A stretch of DNA of 42,119 bases from IMG/VR virus record IMGVR_UViG_3300034272_001457, positions 1 to 42,119 of that record, one strand, 5' to 3'. Numbering within the stretch: the first letter of the stretch is position 1; each line of letters starts with the position of its first letter. The notes under the pieces are model-generated. The model made no database searches. It was not told where the DNA came from and worked only from the letters and a program-made list of their open reading frames with translations. The translations under genes were made by a program, and so were the position numbers. Shown here in pieces: positions 5,215 to 30,596 of this stretch. Source of the stretch: a virus.

Positions 5215-5269
5215 TAAAAAACGCACCCAATCGCTAAACAGGGTGCGTCCAACTCTTTTAATGTTTAGC
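5215..5269 (-). promoter_or_regulatory. Transcription attenuator-like leader of the RusA unit
   Basis: On the minus strand ACGCACCC (5248-5241) and GGGTGCGT (5228-5221) form a perfect 8-bp stem, followed directly by further T residues to 5216: an intrinsic terminator just before the resolvase ribosome-binding site. Its loop contains TGTTTAGC (5240-5233), which is perfectly complementary to GCTAAACA (5269-5262) at the predicted RNA 5' end. The two stems cross, so they are either alternative folds (antiterminator versus terminator) or an H-type pseudoknot. Confidence 0.55.
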
Positions 5270-5276
5270 TGGTAAT

Positions 5277-5282
5277 AGTATA
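5277..5282 (-). promoter_or_regulatory. Putative -10 element for the leftward RusA unit
   Basis: TATACT on the minus strand (5282-5277) would start RNA near 5270, one base before the antiterminator-like arm. No good -35 box is present at 16-18 bp, so activation or an unusual promoter is possible. Confidence 0.35.
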
Positions 5283-5306
5283 ACACACTTTTTATTTTAA
5301 ATGCTA

Positions 5307-5335
5307 TTGTAAAGTTTTGTAAAATACTCTATTTT
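5307..5335 (+). promoter_or_regulatory. Possible rightward promoter for the recombination gene block
   Basis: TTGTAA (5307-5312) and TATTTT (5330-5335) lie 17 bp apart, upstream of the gene at 5394. Each box matches consensus at four of six positions. The site is divergent to the RusA leader. Confidence 0.3.
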
Positions 5336-5393
5336 GTGGATTGTTTTTTGTGTAATTGTGTTGTATATTAAAAAAGTCAAAGGAGTAAACCAA

Positions 5394-5537
5394 ATGTATT
5401 TAACCCCCGAACAAAGGCTTGCTTTAGAAAGTGTGATTGCCACGCTTGAAGAAGTGACCGAAAGTTTATCACAATTGTCTAGTATGCAAGAACAGTTATT
5501 AGGAGGATTCAATGAAAATAGCAACGTATTTTACTAA
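5394..5537 (+). CDS. Small acidic coiled-coil protein (47 aa)
   Basis: ATG 5394 follows AAAGGAG by 8 bases; the frame is open further upstream but overlaps the promoter. The 47 residues (MYLTPEQRLALESVIATLEE onward) are acidic and predicted helical with heptad-like Leu/Val spacing. It overlaps the next gene by 26 bases, and the ribosome-binding site of that gene (AGGAGG) lies inside it. Function unknown. Confidence 0.6.
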   Translation: MYLTPEQRLALESVIATLEEVTESLSQLSSMQEQLLGGFNENSNVFY

Positions 5538-5874
5538 AAAAGAAGAGGAGTTTGTCAACGATTATGTGTTTCAGTATCGTGGGCGAAGCTTCAAAGGTTG
5601 GGTAGCCACAAAACTTGCCACATGGTTACAAGGCGATGACTTTGAACAGTTAAAACTAGAAGATTTGCGTTTCATGGATGAATCCAGTAACGTGATTCGT
5701 GCAAACCAAGAAGAATACGTCACCAAGTATGCCGATATTTCACCCGAAGAACACAAGCTTTTTGTTGAAAAAGTAAAAGCCTTAAAGCAAGGCACTTTTC
5801 GCGAGTATAAAATCAGCTTGTTTCTTATACTGCGTTCCTTAATTTTAAAGGAGGTCGGCTATAAAGAGACTTAG
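5512..5874 (+). CDS. Hypothetical protein
   Basis: 120 residues starting 6 bases after AGGAGG. It is largely helical and charged (for example TYFTKKEEEFVNDYVFQYRG at the start), with no cysteine and no membrane segment. It sits in the block that leads to the ERF annealase and SSB. I see no catalytic motif and do not recognise the family. Confidence 0.7.
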   Translation: MKIATYFTKKEEEFVNDYVFQYRGRSFKGWVATKLATWLQGDDFEQLKLEDLRFMDESSNVIRANQEEYVTKYADISPEEHKLFVEKVKALKQGTFREYKISLFLILRSLILKEVGYKET

Positions 5875-11079: not shown

Positions 11080-11494
11080 ATACGATATAACCTTTTCAAA
11101 AGTGATTTTGAAAGGTGTTAAACTAGAACTTATTGAAAGTGGATCAAGTAGTGAAGACCTTGCCAAAGGAATGGTAGATATACTACAAGGCTTCTTTAAT
11201 GCACATAAGGACAAGTTTAATTGCGAAAGTATAGAAGTCGTCTACGAAGATAAGTTTAACATTTACGCCAATGTTAAGCCTCATGCGACAAAAGCTTATG
11301 CGTCTTATGCTACTTATAAATCATGTGATGACTACTTAATGGGTGTCCTTATCCGACTTGATAACGGCGTGGATATTAACCTCTGTGAAAGCTATGTTTT
11401 TCAAGAAGCAATCGACATCGCCCAGCAGTACATCAAAGACCACCCCGAATATGAATGGGTAAAAACTTACAAAGATTTGAAGTTAAACGTCTAG
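11075..11494 (+). CDS. Hypothetical protein (139 aa)
   Basis: 139 residues from the ATG within the duplicated start cassette. It is acidic to neutral, with beta-like YDITFSKVILKGVKLELIES at the start and helical SYVFQEAIDIAQQYIKDHPE near the end. No membrane segment or known motif. It lies directly upstream of the frameshifted transglycosylase gene, from which it is separated by the repeated leader. Confidence 0.68.
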   Translation: MKYDITFSKVILKGVKLELIESGSSSEDLAKGMVDILQGFFNAHKDKFNCESIEVVYEDKFNIYANVKPHATKAYASYATYKSCDDYLMGVLIRLDNGVDINLCESYVFQEAIDIAQQYIKDHPEYEWVKTYKDLKLNV

Positions 11495-11503
11495 TACAGA
11501 ATA

Positions 11504-11525
11504 AGAAAGGAAACTAAAGTATGAA
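11504..11525 (+). repeat. Gene-start repeat, copy 2
   Basis: Identical over 22 bases to 11058-11079; gives the ribosome-binding site and start of the signal-anchor protein at 11521. Confidence 0.6.
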
Positions 11526-11817
11526 CAGATTGATTTTAACCATTACCACCATGATTGTATCCGCTTTAATTAGTGGTTACGGCGTATACAACCTTAACGC
11601 TATGGGTTTTATGACTCCACCCACGCCATTGAATGCCCAAACCATTGAATGCCAAGCAAAGGGACGGCAAAATGCTATGTACCCTGATGTATACGAACTT
11701 TTACGAACACAAGGCGGTTGTGAAATGCTTTCTCCTTACCGTGAAGCGTACCCTAGCAAGCCTCCAGTGCCTTTAAAACTTACTACGGAGGCTTCGACAC
11801 CCAAGGGAAAGTCCTAA
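11521..11817 (+). CDS. Signal-anchor protein; N-terminal half of a frameshifted transglycosylase
   Basis: 98 residues if translated in one frame. Residues 3-26 form a signal peptide or membrane anchor (LILTITTMIVSALISGYGVY). A Pro-rich exported linker follows, with Cys43 and Cys67. The frame ends TPKGKS at TAA 11815. Just before the stop it carries GGGAAAG, the slippery heptamer used by lambda G/T, with an unused GGAGG upstream and a hairpin downstream. A -1 slip would join this anchor to the lytic transglycosylase frame, giving a 245-residue enzyme. The short form may be a regulator or a by-product. Confidence 0.72.
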   Translation: MNRLILTITTMIVSALISGYGVYNLNAMGFMTPPTPLNAQTIECQAKGRQNAMYPDVYELLRTQGGCEMLSPYREAYPSKPPVPLKLTTEASTPKGKS

Positions 11818-11831
11818 GCCCACGGAAGGGC
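11787..11831 (+). other. Programmed -1 frameshift signal
   Basis: Three elements stand in order: an orphan GGAGG (11787-11791) with no start codon after it; the heptamer G GGA AAG (11805-11811) in the right phase, 13 bases on; and a hairpin GCCC-ACGGAA-GGGC (11818-11831) after a 6-base spacer. The zero-frame stop is at 11815-11817. The -1 frame is blocked by TAG at 11754, then open to 12257. The frames thus overlap only between 11757 and 11814. A second heptamer T TTA AAA (11772-11778) also lies there. Confidence 0.65.
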
Positions 11832-11861
11832 ATTAAACTAGGCACAAGCAAAGCACATCGC

Positions 11862-12257
11862 TTGTTTGCTTCGCAGAACTTTAGTCCACGTTTAACAAAT
11901 CACATCATTACTGTTTCAAAACAAAAAAAAGTTGATCCGATTTTGGTTTATGCAGTAATGAAGCAAGAAAGTGGCTTTCGCCTAAAAGCAGGGAGCCACG
12001 CAGGAGCCAAAGGCTTAATGCAAGTTATGCCATTTCATTTTCCACATTGTGGTGTTTCTAACGGCTTTAATGCCTATCAAAACACCACTTGCGGAATAGG
12101 TATTTTAGCGGATGCGTTAAACGATGCTCACGGCAATGTTAAAATTGCACTTTCCCTATACAATAGCGGAAAGAAAAATGGATATTTGCGATTTAATGAA
12201 ACTAAAAACTATGTGCGTAACATTACAGCACATTACAACAAGCTGAAAGGAGCTTAA
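11862..12257 (+). CDS. Lytic transglycosylase domain (SLT/GH23), C-terminal half of the frameshift product
   Basis: The frame from TTG 11862 gives 131 residues, but coding-like sequence continues upstream to about 11811, and no start with a ribosome-binding site exists. QESGF holds the catalytic Glu36 (counted from the TTG). GAKGLMQVMP (48-57) and IALSLYNSGKKNG (about 94-106) are the other SLT motifs. The enzyme cleaves the MurNAc-GlcNAc bond, forming 1,6-anhydro-MurNAc. Without the upstream anchor it would stay in the cytoplasm. The -1 fusion with the 11521 frame supplies the export signal. A simple frameshift mutation is the alternative. Confidence 0.85.
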   Translation: MFASQNFSPRLTNHIITVSKQKKVDPILVYAVMKQESGFRLKAGSHAGAKGLMQVMPFHFPHCGVSNGFNAYQNTTCGIGILADALNDAHGNVKIALSLYNSGKKNGYLRFNETKNYVRNITAHYNKLKGA

Positions 12258-12260
12258 CGG

Positions 12261-12413
12261 ATGAACTCATCTATACATGCAGTCGCATTGATTCTATTGG
12301 TGCTAGTGCATTATTACCCACCGAAGATATACCCCTATTACATAACGGTATTTTTGATTTCTATCAATTTAGTATTTTGGTTTATGTTGCTAAAAGAAGC
12401 GATAGGAGCATAA
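12261..12413 (+). CDS. Small hydrophobic membrane protein (50 aa)
   Basis: AGGAG lies 8 bases before ATG 12261, inside the end of the transglycosylase gene. Two hydrophobic helices are likely: residues 6-18 (HAVALILLVLVHY) and 28-44 (ITVFLISINLVFWFMLL). Size and position right after a cell-wall enzyme make a holin or antiholin possible. No sequence family recognised. Confidence 0.6.
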   Translation: MNSSIHAVALILLVLVHYYPPKIYPYYITVFLISINLVFWFMLLKEAIGA

Positions 12414-12415
12414 CC

Positions 12416-12571
12416 ATGGCACTGTTTCTTGAATCTGTTAAACCGTTTTGTGCGTACTTTGTTTTATACTTCCTATGCCCAACTATAGCATTATTGGCTA
12501 TTATGGTGTGTATGCCTAAAACAGTGCGTGTGTTTTTAAATGTTATTAAGAAAGAAGGAGAAACACGATGA
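12416..12571 (+). CDS. Small membrane protein (51 aa)
   Basis: ATG 12416 follows AGGAG by 7 bases; an upstream ATG in frame lacks a site. A long hydrophobic segment (residues 11-33, with FVLYFLCPTIALLAIMVCM) is followed by a basic tail. With the preceding gene it forms a pair of tiny membrane proteins after the transglycosylase, an arrangement reminiscent of a lysis or envelope-penetration cassette. The assignment to holins is only by context. Confidence 0.6.
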   Translation: MALFLESVKPFCAYFVLYFLCPTIALLAIMVCMPKTVRVFLNVIKKEGETR

Positions 12572-14264: not shown

Positions 14265-14573
14265 ATGAACTTTAAAGGTTGGTCAACAGGTGAAAATGAA
14301 GCAAGGGAGATGTACGAATGCTTATTAAAAAGCGGGATGTCTAAAGAAGATTCTTTGCAAACCGTAAAACACCACTTGCATATAAATCCGATAATTGATG
14401 TAAAACATGAATGCACGCCGTTATGTACTTATTTCTGCTTGCACACAGACCCAAGTGTAGGTGTAAAACTTAAAAACCCTCGCTATTTCCGTGGTTGGGA
14501 TCGTTTTGTGGCGGAAATGGATTTTCAAATAAAATGGGAATCTGAAAAGAAAAGGTTAGCTGACTTAACTTAA
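14265..14573 (+). CDS. Hypothetical protein (102 aa), last rightward gene of the middle block
   Basis: 102 residues. His and Cys residues cluster in the middle (VKHHLH at 34-39, then HECTPLCTYFCLHTD), which could bind a metal. The C-terminus is basic and helical. The gene converges on the leftward M15 endopeptidase gene, and their ends overlap by a few bases. No intrinsic terminator is visible between the two, so the opposing transcripts probably overlap. Confidence 0.65.
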   Translation: MNFKGWSTGENEAREMYECLLKSGMSKEDSLQTVKHHLHINPIIDVKHECTPLCTYFCLHTDPSVGVKLKNPRYFRGWDRFVAEMDFQIKWESEKKRLADLT

Positions 14574-15034
14574 TACGTCCACTCACGCTCTTTGCCTAAG
14601 TCAACGTGTACAAAGTCTGCCCAGCCGTCCTTGTTGTAATCGGCTCTAGCAAGCCCCCCAGTGTGAAACTTGTCTAAACGTGCCATTTGGTTTTTATCAA
14701 ACGGCACGCCTTTTACTACAAAGTCCACCGCTACACCAGTCAAGTGCATGGACTTAGGCGCTCCACCAATACGCTTGTTATGAGTAGGCACACGCAACCA
14801 TGAAGTGATGATAATCGGCTTGCCAAAGTAAGTCCGCAATGTCTCCAAGTATTCCGCCATTTTAACGGCATTGTCTAACATGGGTCGTGTTACTTCGTCC
14901 CATTCATTCGGGCGAATACCTGTAAACACTTCACCCCATTTAAAGTTTTCGCTAATGTTCTTTTCACACAAAAACTTATACTCATAGGTTTTAATCAATG
15001 AAAATGCTGATCCTGCGGTTAGTGGTTTTGGCAT
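14570..15034 (-). CDS. M15-family peptidase endolysin
   Basis: 154 residues. His97 and Asp104 in SMHLTGVAVDF and His143 in FVHVDLG form the zinc site of the M15 (VanY / D-alanyl-D-alanine peptidase-like) fold. Phage enzymes of this kind cut peptide cross-links of peptidoglycan. There is no signal peptide or separate wall-binding domain, so release should depend on a holin; the small TM/coiled-coil gene at 15393 is the candidate. It is the last gene of the late operon, and its ribosome-binding site (AGGAGG, 45-40 of 15000) can be hidden in a hairpin. Confidence 0.88.
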   Translation of the reverse strand: MPKPLTAGSAFSLIKTYEYKFLCEKNISENFKWGEVFTGIRPNEWDEVTRPMLDNAVKMAEYLETLRTYFGKPIIITSWLRVPTHNKRIGGAPKSMHLTGVAVDFVVKGVPFDKNQMARLDKFHTGGLARADYNKDGWADFVHVDLGKEREWTY

Positions 15035-27443: not shown

Positions 27444-29897
27444 TTAAGCGAATCCCCTTTGTAGCATTCCACCATGACGGCTTTCCGTTTTTAAAACTTG
27501 GCGTACTTTTGTTTCAATCATATCACTAATTTGTTTACCTGCTTCTAACAAACCTTGCTTGTCATCCTTACCACCGCCTTGTGTGTTGACCGTCACGTTG
27601 TTAATAACCGTAACGCCACCGCCACCACCGCTAGGCATGGCATCGTTACGCATGATATTTCCTGCCGTGCGTGGTACAAACATTTCACGCCCCGATTCAC
27701 CCACCATGTAAGGCGTGTTAGCGGATACGGAGCCACCACCTGCACGTCCTGAATAGCCCAACGTACCTACCATAGGGTTATTTGAACCACTAAATAAAAC
27801 GCTTCCCTGTCCAGTAAATGCCCCACCGCCTGCTTTACTTGCCCCACCTGCGACGCTAGTCACTATGCCTGTGATTAGTTGTAAGGTGTAAACCTTAATC
27901 AATTGCACGGCTATTTGCCTAAGCAAGCCCACCATAATGTCCTTGAAAGAAGCTGTCCCATTAACCATGTGTTCAATGGTATTGTCAAACGCTGAACGTA
28001 AAGCGTTACGAATCCCCTCGCTTGCTTCTTTCGCACGGTCTGCCATTTGTTGCGTTTGGTTTGTATAATCCTTTAACGCTTGTTCACGGGTTGCTTGTTC
28101 TTGTGCCTGTTGCTTTTGTTGTTCTGTGGCGTTGGAATCTTTAAGTAAGTCACGCTTTCTTTGCTCAATATCTAACTCACGCCGTTTAAGTTCAAGGGCT
28201 TTTTCACCGCCGACTAAAAACGCTTCTCTCAATTCTTTCGCTTTTTGTTCTTCAATGTTTAAATCTTCTGACGCTTGCTTGAGACTTACACTAAGCTCAA
28301 GCTGTTTCTTTTTGGCTTCTGCATCCTGCTCACGTTTAACAATGCTTTGAGCGATCAACTCAAGTTCTTTTTTACCCTTGCCTAAGTAATCGCCCATAAG
28401 CTCGTTATAACGCCCTAAGCCTTCATTTTGTTTAAGCTGTGCCTCGTAGGCTTTAATGCCTCCGCTTGCTAAGGCTTGTATGGCTTTGTCCATGCCTTGA
28501 ACCTGTAGCATGGCTTCACTAGCTTTTTCTTTAATGGACTTCAGCGCTTCGGCGTATTGATCGGCTTGCTGTTGTGCTTCTGACTTTCCACTGCTTGCCT
28601 TTCCTTTTCCCTTGCCTGTTTTACTTAAAGGCGTTTCTATTGTGCCTCTAGCATCAGTAGGAATGGGCGTTGCAATGCTTTTGGGTGTATTAAATAATCC
28701 ATTAAAACCATTCCCAATTTGTTTAAAATCTTGAATTGCACCACCAAATGATGCCTTTCTATCTTTTTTTGCCTGTTGGATCATCCCTTCTACGATACCA
28801 GTAGATTGAAACTTAATAGGGCTTATACTGTTAATTGCAGACCCTAGTTTTGCTATAGCTCGTAAACTATTTTCGACAATCGACGCAATAACACCGTTGA
28901 AACCACGCCAGACGCCTTGTAATAAATCAAAGACGCCCTTAAATGCAAAAGATACCACTTGCACAAAAGTAATCATGTCTTTTTTACTTGCTTCTACACT
29001 TTTAAGAATAGAATCAAAAGAACGCAATAATGAACCGCTTGCATCTGTCGCCTTGTCAATATCGGCAACTAATGACGCAAATGTAATATCCGCCTGCGAC
29101 TTTAAACGCCCAAACGTCATAGGCATTTTGTCAAAATCTTTGTTGATCTTGTCTGACTGTTTAATTAAAGCATCAAATACATCTTTTGATAAAAGCTTGC
29201 CTTCAAGCACCATAAGGCGAAGCTTGCCTACTGATACGCCCATGCCTTCCGCTATTGCCGTAACAAGCTCTTGGGTGTTTTCCTGCATGGAGTTAAACTC
29301 TTCAGCACGGACGATGCCACCAGCCATAGCTTGAGCAAACTGCATTTGACTGTTTTTAATGGCTTCACCACTTGCTCCACTTAACACACCTAGTTTGTTA
29401 ACGGTTTCTGTTAAAATCAATAGTTCTTTATTGGTAGCCCCTATGCTATTTTTTGCGTTGAGTCCACGATTAAAAACTTGAACGGTGGATTCCAAGGCAA
29501 CGCCGGTTTCGCCTGCAATTTTCTTTAATTCTTTAAAGTTCTGCGTGCCTAGTGCAATACCCTTGCTTGCGTTGATCGTCCGTGCTTCAAGCATCCGCAT
29601 CTTATCGGCTGTGTCAGCAAGTTGTTTAGCAGTGTTTAATGAAAGATAGCCAATCGCTGCATTTTTCAGCAATCCCATTGCCCCCGAAAATTGCGAGGTT
29701 TCTTTTTTTACTTTTTGGGTTGCATTTTCAACCTTTTTAGTTTGTTCAGCGATTTGTTGTAATCGAAGGTTTGTTAAGTTTCCACTTGCAACCAATGCGT
29801 CTAGGGCTTTTTTGTAATCGTTTGTTTGTGCCTTTGCCTGCTGAACGCCCTTAGCTTCGACTTCTACTGTGATTTTAGGATTGTCCGCCATCATCAT
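27444..29897 (-). CDS. H: Tail tape measure protein
   Basis: 817 residues; tail length should scale with this (shorter than lambda H, 853). The first ATG of three at the start follows AGGAGG. The segment about residues 127-290 (FNRGLNAKNSIGATNKELLI ... MQENTQELVTAIAEGMGVS) is the canonical tape-measure N-terminal domain. Hydrophobic helices occur around 315-350 and 680-700, and a coiled coil at 505-650. The C-terminus with PYMVGESGREMFVPRTAG is the usual lambda-type tail. It overlaps the T-like frame by 23 bases. Confidence 0.95.
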   Translation of the reverse strand: MMMADNPKITVEVEAKGVQQAKAQTNDYKKALDALVASGNLTNLRLQQIAEQTKKVENATQKVKKETSQFSGAMGLLKNAAIGYLSLNTAKQLADTADKMRMLEARTINASKGIALGTQNFKELKKIAGETGVALESTVQVFNRGLNAKNSIGATNKELLILTETVNKLGVLSGASGEAIKNSQMQFAQAMAGGIVRAEEFNSMQENTQELVTAIAEGMGVSVGKLRLMVLEGKLLSKDVFDALIKQSDKINKDFDKMPMTFGRLKSQADITFASLVADIDKATDASGSLLRSFDSILKSVEASKKDMITFVQVVSFAFKGVFDLLQGVWRGFNGVIASIVENSLRAIAKLGSAINSISPIKFQSTGIVEGMIQQAKKDRKASFGGAIQDFKQIGNGFNGLFNTPKSIATPIPTDARGTIETPLSKTGKGKGKASSGKSEAQQQADQYAEALKSIKEKASEAMLQVQGMDKAIQALASGGIKAYEAQLKQNEGLGRYNELMGDYLGKGKKELELIAQSIVKREQDAEAKKKQLELSVSLKQASEDLNIEEQKAKELREAFLVGGEKALELKRRELDIEQRKRDLLKDSNATEQQKQQAQEQATREQALKDYTNQTQQMADRAKEASEGIRNALRSAFDNTIEHMVNGTASFKDIMVGLLRQIAVQLIKVYTLQLITGIVTSVAGGASKAGGGAFTGQGSVLFSGSNNPMVGTLGYSGRAGGGSVSANTPYMVGESGREMFVPRTAGNIMRNDAMPSGGGGGVTVINNVTVNTQGGGKDDKQGLLEAGKQISDMIETKVRQVLKTESRHGGMLQRGFA

Positions 29898-30183
29898 TTT
29901 TAGAAGCCTCCTGCATCATTAAACGATCTATCTCCATTATAAGCTTTAACTCATCTCGATTGTAGGCGACCCCCACCATGCGATGCCATGCTTCCAATTC
30001 CGTCCACTTCAAAGGGCTTGCGCCACCCATGCCGTAATCCTTACCATGAAAAGCGATGTCATCGTAGATGCTAAACAAGTAACCATGCTTACATTTTGGA
30101 GGCACTAGGGCAGGGCTAGAAGGGTCGTTGTGGTGGATTGTTTGCCATACGCTACACTTACCGCCCTTTGGGACTTTCCGCAT
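29875..30183 (-). CDS. T: Tail assembly chaperone T-like frame (made as G-T fusion by -1 frameshift)
   Basis: The annotated ATG 30183 gives 102 residues but has no ribosome-binding site. Coding-like sequence continues upstream in the same frame (QYAKWLCE before MRKVPKGGKC), back to a TAA at 30282-30280. The frame is -1 relative to the G-like gene and overlaps its end. In lambda and relatives, gpG and gpGT from this arrangement guide tail-tube assembly around the tape measure. The body contains YRSIDE-free, Trp/His-rich helices (LKWTELEAWHRMVGVAYN) typical of the T half. Confidence 0.8.
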   Translation of the reverse strand: MRKVPKGGKCSVWQTIHHNDPSSPALVPPKCKHGYLFSIYDDIAFHGKDYGMGGASPLKWTELEAWHRMVGVAYNRDELKLIMEIDRLMMQEASKNDDGGQS

Positions 30184-30209
30184 CTCGCATAGCCACTTGG
30201 CGTATTGAG

Positions 30210-30596
30210 TTATTTCTTCTTTTTGCGTGGATTGGCTTGTTTTTCCTCTTTCACTACTGGAGGGGGAACCGTAAAAAAATTACTTTTTTCCGTGAAGAAA
30301 CTAACCAATTGCTCGCCAATAAAAGCAGAATCAGGACTTTCTAGCAATGCTTGAAACCCTTCGGCGCTAAACTCGTAATCACCCAACTCTCCACTTTCAA
30401 GGATGCCAAAAAATGCCTGTGCAATGCCTTCCGCCGTGTCTAAACTACCGCTACCAATCAAAGAACTAAACTTTTCATAAGAAGCCGAATCAGATCGTGG
30501 CTTAAATACGATCTTCACATCTTCAATCAGCTCACCATACACTGGATCAACCGCTTGAAAAACGGCTTGCTTTGCTTTAATATCCCCTAAGCGCAT
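30210..30596 (-). CDS. G: Tail assembly chaperone, lambda G-like
   Basis: 128 residues. Position between the tube protein and the tape measure, small acidic helical body (FGILESGELGDYEFSAEGFQ) and basic Lys-rich end NPRKKKK identify it as the G-type chaperone. It should be made in excess over the GT fusion. The last codons AAA AAG AAG AAA TAA follow a C, so the slip region at 30225-30219 is C AAA AAG. Confidence 0.85.
   Translation of the reverse strand: MRLGDIKAKQAVFQAVDPVYGELIEDVKIVFKPRSDSASYEKFSSLIGSGSLDTAEGIAQAFFGILESGELGDYEFSAEGFQALLESPDSAFIGEQLVSFFTEKSNFFTVPPPVVKEEKQANPRKKKK
30219..30279 (-). other. Candidate -1 frameshift region of G/T
   Basis: The -1 frame is open from 30279. Two sites have correct phase: T TTT TTT (30279-30273) and C AAA AAG (30225-30219). 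The first is a full heptamer repeat but lies early; the second is 6 codons or fewer from the G stop, as in other phages, but has C in place of the first A. No strong downstream stem is evident. Confidence 0.55.

Follow-up and report, generated by a model that had tools for sequence, protein, structure and literature searches.

In a viral IMG/VR record 42,119 bases long (the whole stretch of DNA that was analysed, hereafter called the window), a short open reading frame encoding a putative membrane anchor overlaps, in the -1 frame, a frame that encodes a lytic transglycosylase domain, which raises the question how this domain comes to be translated. The two frames and the domain are located as follows:

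11521..11817, plus strand: frame-0 anchor ORF, ATG to TAA, 98 amino acids
11757..12257, plus strand: enzyme frame (-1), a stop-to-stop open frame presumably entered at the heptamer (11805)
11904-12182, plus strand: lytic transglycosylase domain, placed by genome search

A sequence-only reading of this DNA had proposed that the frames are joined by programmed -1 frameshifting. Its coordinates and the frame relation of both ORFs were right, and the 58-base overlap (61 nt if the stop codon is counted), the 98-residue anchor and the predicted fusion of 245 amino acids were obtained again when the lengths were recomputed. The anchor ORF consists of a hydrophobic export or anchor segment (residues 4-22), a short exported domain which includes Cys44 and Cys67, and a proline-rich linker, and its stop lies two codons past the heptamer. 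The -1 frame matches the SLT family (PF01464) with an E value of 2.8e-18 and 66 bits, against a Pfam cut-off of 21.3, and reading of the sequence identified the motifs KQESGF, with the catalytic Glu in the ES motif, and GAKGLMQVMP, with the GLMQ motif. The statement that the enzyme frame has no usable start was almost correct: no ATG, GTG or TTG occurs before the TTG at 11862, which is without a Shine-Dalgarno sequence, but a start there would still take in the whole SLT domain.

Four elements that may direct a change of frame lie in or next to the overlap:

11772..11778, plus strand: second in-phase heptamer, T_TTA_AAA, found in the window only, inside the same overlap
11787..11791, plus strand: internal Shine-Dalgarno-like GGAGG, 13 nt 5' of the G_GGA_AAG heptamer
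11805..11811, plus strand: slippery heptamer G_GGA_AAG, in phase, predicted junction PKGK-VLSPR
11818..11831, plus strand: hairpin GCCC-ACGGAA-GGGC, 4-bp stem and 6-nt loop, 6 nt 3' of the heptamer

The GGAGG, the GGGAAAG and the hairpin had all been placed correctly, the hairpin being the predicted minimum-energy fold, and G_GGA_AAG is in the right phase as claimed, but T_TTA_AAA had been overlooked. The window contains the composite pattern GGNGG-N13-GGGAAAG-N6-GCCC a single time, and 0 of 100 shuffles contain it. GGGAAAG alone is not rare in the window (6 found, 4.3 expected), in-phase XXXYYYZ heptamers occur at 0.7 % of the codons in open frames 100 or more codons long, a perfect 4-6-4 hairpin begins at 0.47 % of positions, and the window hairpin alone is unexceptional compared with shuffles (z -0.9). 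An Rfam search gave no match near the cassette, and PADLOC gave no match. The window by itself is suggestive, and the strong evidence is the conservation of the cassette in four relatives.

These relatives were found in IMG/VR by terminase and capsid searches, complemented by the cassette pattern, and each has a copy of the gene:

L045: IMGVR_UViG_3300032283_000637
L055: 3300044730_000625
L062 (also L056): 3300042509_001480
L098: 3300005805_000276

Together with the window they bring the gene to five copies, each in its own record, which agree in the order of anchor, heptamer and enzyme and in the 5-13-7-6-4-6-4 geometry; a search for relatives with this order had been suggested in the sequence-only reading, and these four matched. 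Across 17 records of the phage group, the Shine-Dalgarno-heptamer pattern matches exactly the five in which the gene was found. Every copy has G_GGA_AAG unchanged and in the correct phase, the upstream site is GGAGG or GGGGG (GGRGG) exactly 13 nt before it, and a stem of 4 bp closing a 6-nt loop begins exactly 6 nt after it. The hairpin is the predicted minimum-energy fold in every copy, and in L098 both arms of the stem are changed (GCTC/GAGC), a compensatory C-G to U-A replacement. All 20 stem cells pair, but a single covariation event in one sequence is weak support (82 of 500 shuffles reach that level), and from these alignments the stem is likely, though not proven, to be real. Among nine IMG/VR matches of the hairpin pattern, six (L052, L054, L057, L058, L059 and L060) do not have the gene layout. 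SLT matches in L002-L005 were rejected as copies of the same gene, as they sit in long single-frame proteins.

Bacterial -1 frameshifting was judged by the presence of an X_XXY_YYZ heptamer in phase before the frame-0 stop with the downstream frame open in -1, which all five copies satisfy, and a downstream RNA structure was expected 5-9 nt after the heptamer. Such a structure is predicted 6 nt away in 5/5 copies, although the stem is short and that of the window is no stabler than in shuffles. According to a frameshifting review (PMC5009743), stimulatory Shine-Dalgarno sites for -1 shifting lie 9-14 nt upstream of the heptamer, a range which includes the 13-nt spacing of GGRGG in all five copies, and G_GGA_AAG is reported there to be highly shift-prone in E. 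coli. The main slip in the window could instead occur at T_TTA_AAA, itself a canonical in-phase heptamer within the overlap. This heptamer is absent from the relatives, however, the spacing of the GGAGG and the hairpin suits GGGAAAG, and the frame-0 residues between the two heptamers are partly conserved (AS-T-xGK), which makes T_TTA_AAA a very improbable main site. Transcriptional slippage was not favoured either, GGGAAAG being no long homopolymer.

Selection was compared between frames on both sides of the cassette. For the anchor, dN/dS in frame 0 was 0.119 (L045/L062) and 0.178 (L055/L098), whereas the other frames gave 0.86-5.7. For the enzyme, dN/dS in the -1 frame was 0.203 (L045/L055; other frames 1.1-2.7) and 0.205 (L062/L098, a pair in which 99 residues are identical over 169 aligned columns). 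Coding selection, as estimated from these substitution rates, switches frame at the cassette, being purifying on frame 0 of the anchor and on the -1 frame of the enzyme. Conservation in divergent relatives combined with selection in both frames, a further criterion for frameshifting, was met. One changed base would fuse the two frames and metagenome assemblies can contain errors, so a single-frame gene split by a recent indel or by a sequencing or assembly error had to be considered. The same frame relation is found at the same place in four other records and with three enzyme types, both frames are under purifying selection, and no relative was found with anchor and enzyme in one intact frame. 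A sequencing error, a recent mutation or a decayed gene was excluded by the four relatives and the selection, and the chance that an intact gene has merely been split here is negligible.

The enzyme might also be a separate cytoplasmic protein that crosses the membrane through a holin; its translation would then begin within the -1 frame, either with GGAGG serving for ribosome binding or through termination-reinitiation. The TTG at 11862 of the window precedes the SLT domain, an ATG is present far upstream in the -1 frame of L045 and L062, and in L098 an ATGA overlap with the anchor stop supplies an in-frame ATG. There is, however, no conserved start, and none lies at initiation distance after the GGAGG in the window, L045, L055 or L062, while the ATG of L098 is preceded only by AAGG, in direct contact with it. 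Internal initiation would furthermore leave the invariant in-phase GGGAAAG and the fixed spacings unexplained. It is considered improbable as the general explanation and is unsupported, with the exception of L098, where the ATG leaves it possible.

The gene is therefore very probably read by programmed -1 ribosomal frameshifting, as the sequence-only reading had supposed, a view which the conserved cassette in the four relatives and the published heptamer and spacing data support. At the level of sequence it is established that the two frames stand in this relation, that the cassette is conserved and that both frames are under selection; that ribosomes slip in cells, and that the two products arise in a fixed ratio, as the sequence-only reading had inferred, is unproven in the absence of expression data. 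It appears that the enzyme is produced only when a ribosome slips back one base at the conserved signal. In frame 0 the export domain would be translated, and the majority of ribosomes would terminate no more than a few codons past the heptamer, releasing in abundance a short exported protein that contains two cysteines. With a ribosome on G_GGA_AAG, the anti-Shine-Dalgarno of its 16S rRNA would pair with the GGRGG 13 nt upstream and its front would meet the hairpin 6 nt downstream of the heptamer, and the Gly and Lys tRNAs could then re-pair one base back, on GGG AAA. A minority of ribosomes would proceed into the -1 frame, and the rarer product would be a 245-amino-acid exported muramidase, tethered or cleaved, cutting peptidoglycan from the periplasmic side. 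The corresponding fusions of the relatives are predicted to have 282-294 amino acids.

The sequences on either side of the cassette are not constant. The enzyme behind it is an SLT domain in the window and a GH108 muramidase in L062 and L098 (PF05838, 5.3e-20 for L062); in L045 and L055 it has no Pfam match and only a weak resemblance to c-type lysozyme (E 0.0067). For this last type the predicted structure (pLDDT 51) was too low in confidence for use, and hhalign against the SLT domain of the window gave no clear result. The -1 relation is retained with all three enzyme types. The anchors, too, are of three sequence types that share little identity, and L045 shares its anchor with L062 but its enzyme with L055. 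Between L062 and L055, identity upstream of the cassette is at background level (17/50, 8/40 and 13/42), rises to 45/46 nt in the cassette and 14/17 just after it, and returns to background farther on. Judged from these comparisons, the cassette is the part that the mosaics retain, the enzyme behind it and the anchor in front of it being exchanged. The evidence leans somewhat towards a wider interpretation, in which the cassette is a fixed translational joint around which export domains and unrelated muramidases have been recombined, so that one and the same slip of the ribosome would govern both export and dose of any enzyme installed, which would be a form of lysin dosing not described before.

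Searches with the anchors in phage and plasmid records gave no match, nor did an anchor profile against 369 genomes belonging to the same class as a Halomonas genome, a search made without a positive control. Scanning genomes for the 5' half of the cassette gave 28 matches, none recognisable as the gene by its frames, and thus no host; all five gene copies are metagenomic, and host and efficiency are undetermined. Window positions 11485-11527, which run from where the upstream gene ends to the start of the anchor (AACGTCTAGTACAGAA...ATG), are 84 % identical to L045 5517-5560 (minus strand). The coding DNA neighbouring this stretch is not alike between the two records, suggesting that a promoter or a further recombination joint may lie within the stretch.

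Several known systems share parts of this arrangement. The E. coli dnaX gene likewise has an internal Shine-Dalgarno-like site, a slippery heptamer and a downstream stem-loop, as described in the review (PMC5009743). It differs in having A_AAA_AAG, a stem of approximately 11 bp, a shift by approximately 50 % of ribosomes and a shifted product which is the shorter one, whereas the gene described here has G_GGA_AAG, a stem of 4-5 bp and a longer shifted product. In lambda-type G/GT tail chaperones, too, a C-terminal domain is added by a -1 shift close to where a short ORF ends, and G_GGA_AAG is among the sites listed for G/GT frameshifting in the same source (PMC5009743). The G/GT gene is, however, a tail gene preceding the tape measure, while here a wall hydrolase is added and an exported protein extended; the present gene was rejected as a G/GT chaperone, since it encodes an SLT fusion and lies in the other arm from the TAC_18 pair. 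This tail-chaperone pair is found at 29875-30596 (minus strand), with TAC_18 in the second frame and a -1 link at C_AAA_AAG immediately ahead of the first stop (CGC AAA AAG AAG AAA TAA), and is of the classic G/GT type. With this shift in addition to the wall-enzyme cassette, the phage seems to use -1 shifting twice. The capsid gene of phage Privateer has the same heptamer, GGGAAAG, and gives two products from one start (PMC7881722). Capsid frameshifting (T7 gene 10, Privateer) differs in that it concerns a structural protein, with no export domain and no enzyme.

In SAR endolysins, such as P1 Lyz and R of phage 21, an N-terminal hydrophobic segment exports the muramidase without a holin pore. 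A hydrophobic N-terminal segment on a muramidase domain is common to these and the present fusions, in all five of which the best 19-residue hydropathy is 1.9-2.5, but here the segment is joined to the muramidase domain only via frameshifting. SAR endolysins are encoded by single-frame genes, whereas here a separate anchor-only product is predicted, and there are no data on membrane release. Lysis functions tied to overlapping frames are also found in MS2 (cited among the references of PMC5009743), the lysis gene of which is switched on by termination of coat translation, and have been suggested for Ms6 lysA. For the gp1/lysA overlap (GTGA) of mycobacteriophage Ms6, the suggestion is a single speculative sentence (PMC3111421). 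A set of heptamer, Shine-Dalgarno and stem is described in neither text.

LNA, VQA and ANA were read after the hydrophobic segment of the anchors, and signal-peptidase cleavage after the segment is possible; lasting membrane anchoring is unproven. The exported part of all five anchors contains two cysteines, 21-27 residues apart, despite the low sequence identity, and these would fit, by inference, an exported, disulphide-bonded domain. The anchor-only product may have a function of its own. Two other features of the window bear on the role of the enzyme:

12261..12413, plus strand: small hydrophobic ORF directly downstream of the enzyme, no family match
14570-15034, minus strand: M15 peptidase of endolysin type (phrog_894), a separate wall enzyme in the other arm

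The downstream ORF is one of two small hydrophobic ORFs behind the enzyme (12261-12571, plus strand), neither with a family match, and other small hydrophobic ORFs occur at the same place in relatives (L051 and elsewhere); that it encodes a holin-like partner is possible, but the support is weak. In L062, an N-acetylmuramoyl-L-alanine amidase (Amidase_2) is encoded at 5237-5728 (minus strand) where the window has the M15 peptidase, and an amidase likewise replaces M15 after the matching stretch in L098. The frameshift product is predicted from its domain to supply a glycan-cutting activity. Its most likely role, which is inferred, is to assist lysis in limited dose, as an accessory to the M15 peptidase or amidase that the phage encodes separately. 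The frameshift may also be real and the enzyme serve a purpose other than lysis, for example wall remodelling or exclusion of other phages; the gene lies on the plus strand amid small genes of unknown function, and a second endolysin-type enzyme, the M15 peptidase, is present in the other arm. GH108 and SLT-type domains are, however, named endolysins in phage families, and small hydrophobic ORFs come after the gene. Neither point settles the role, and a non-lysis function is still a possibility, although a less likely one than that of an accessory lysis enzyme.

In the open literature, subscription papers not being covered, phage frameshifting was found for tail and capsid genes and none for a wall hydrolase, and the part of the frameshifting review that could be consulted mentions neither endolysin, lysozyme, transglycosylase nor peptidoglycan (PMC5009743). 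A phage wall hydrolase made by frameshifting is likely, though not certain, to be new. Standard gene callers would truncate or miss such an enzyme, and similar enzymes may therefore have gone unnoticed in the genomes of other phages. The mosaic, with one cassette and three enzyme types, constitutes a natural experiment. If the interpretation is true, the dose of an exported lytic enzyme would be set at the ribosome, beyond the holin clock or the promoter alone.
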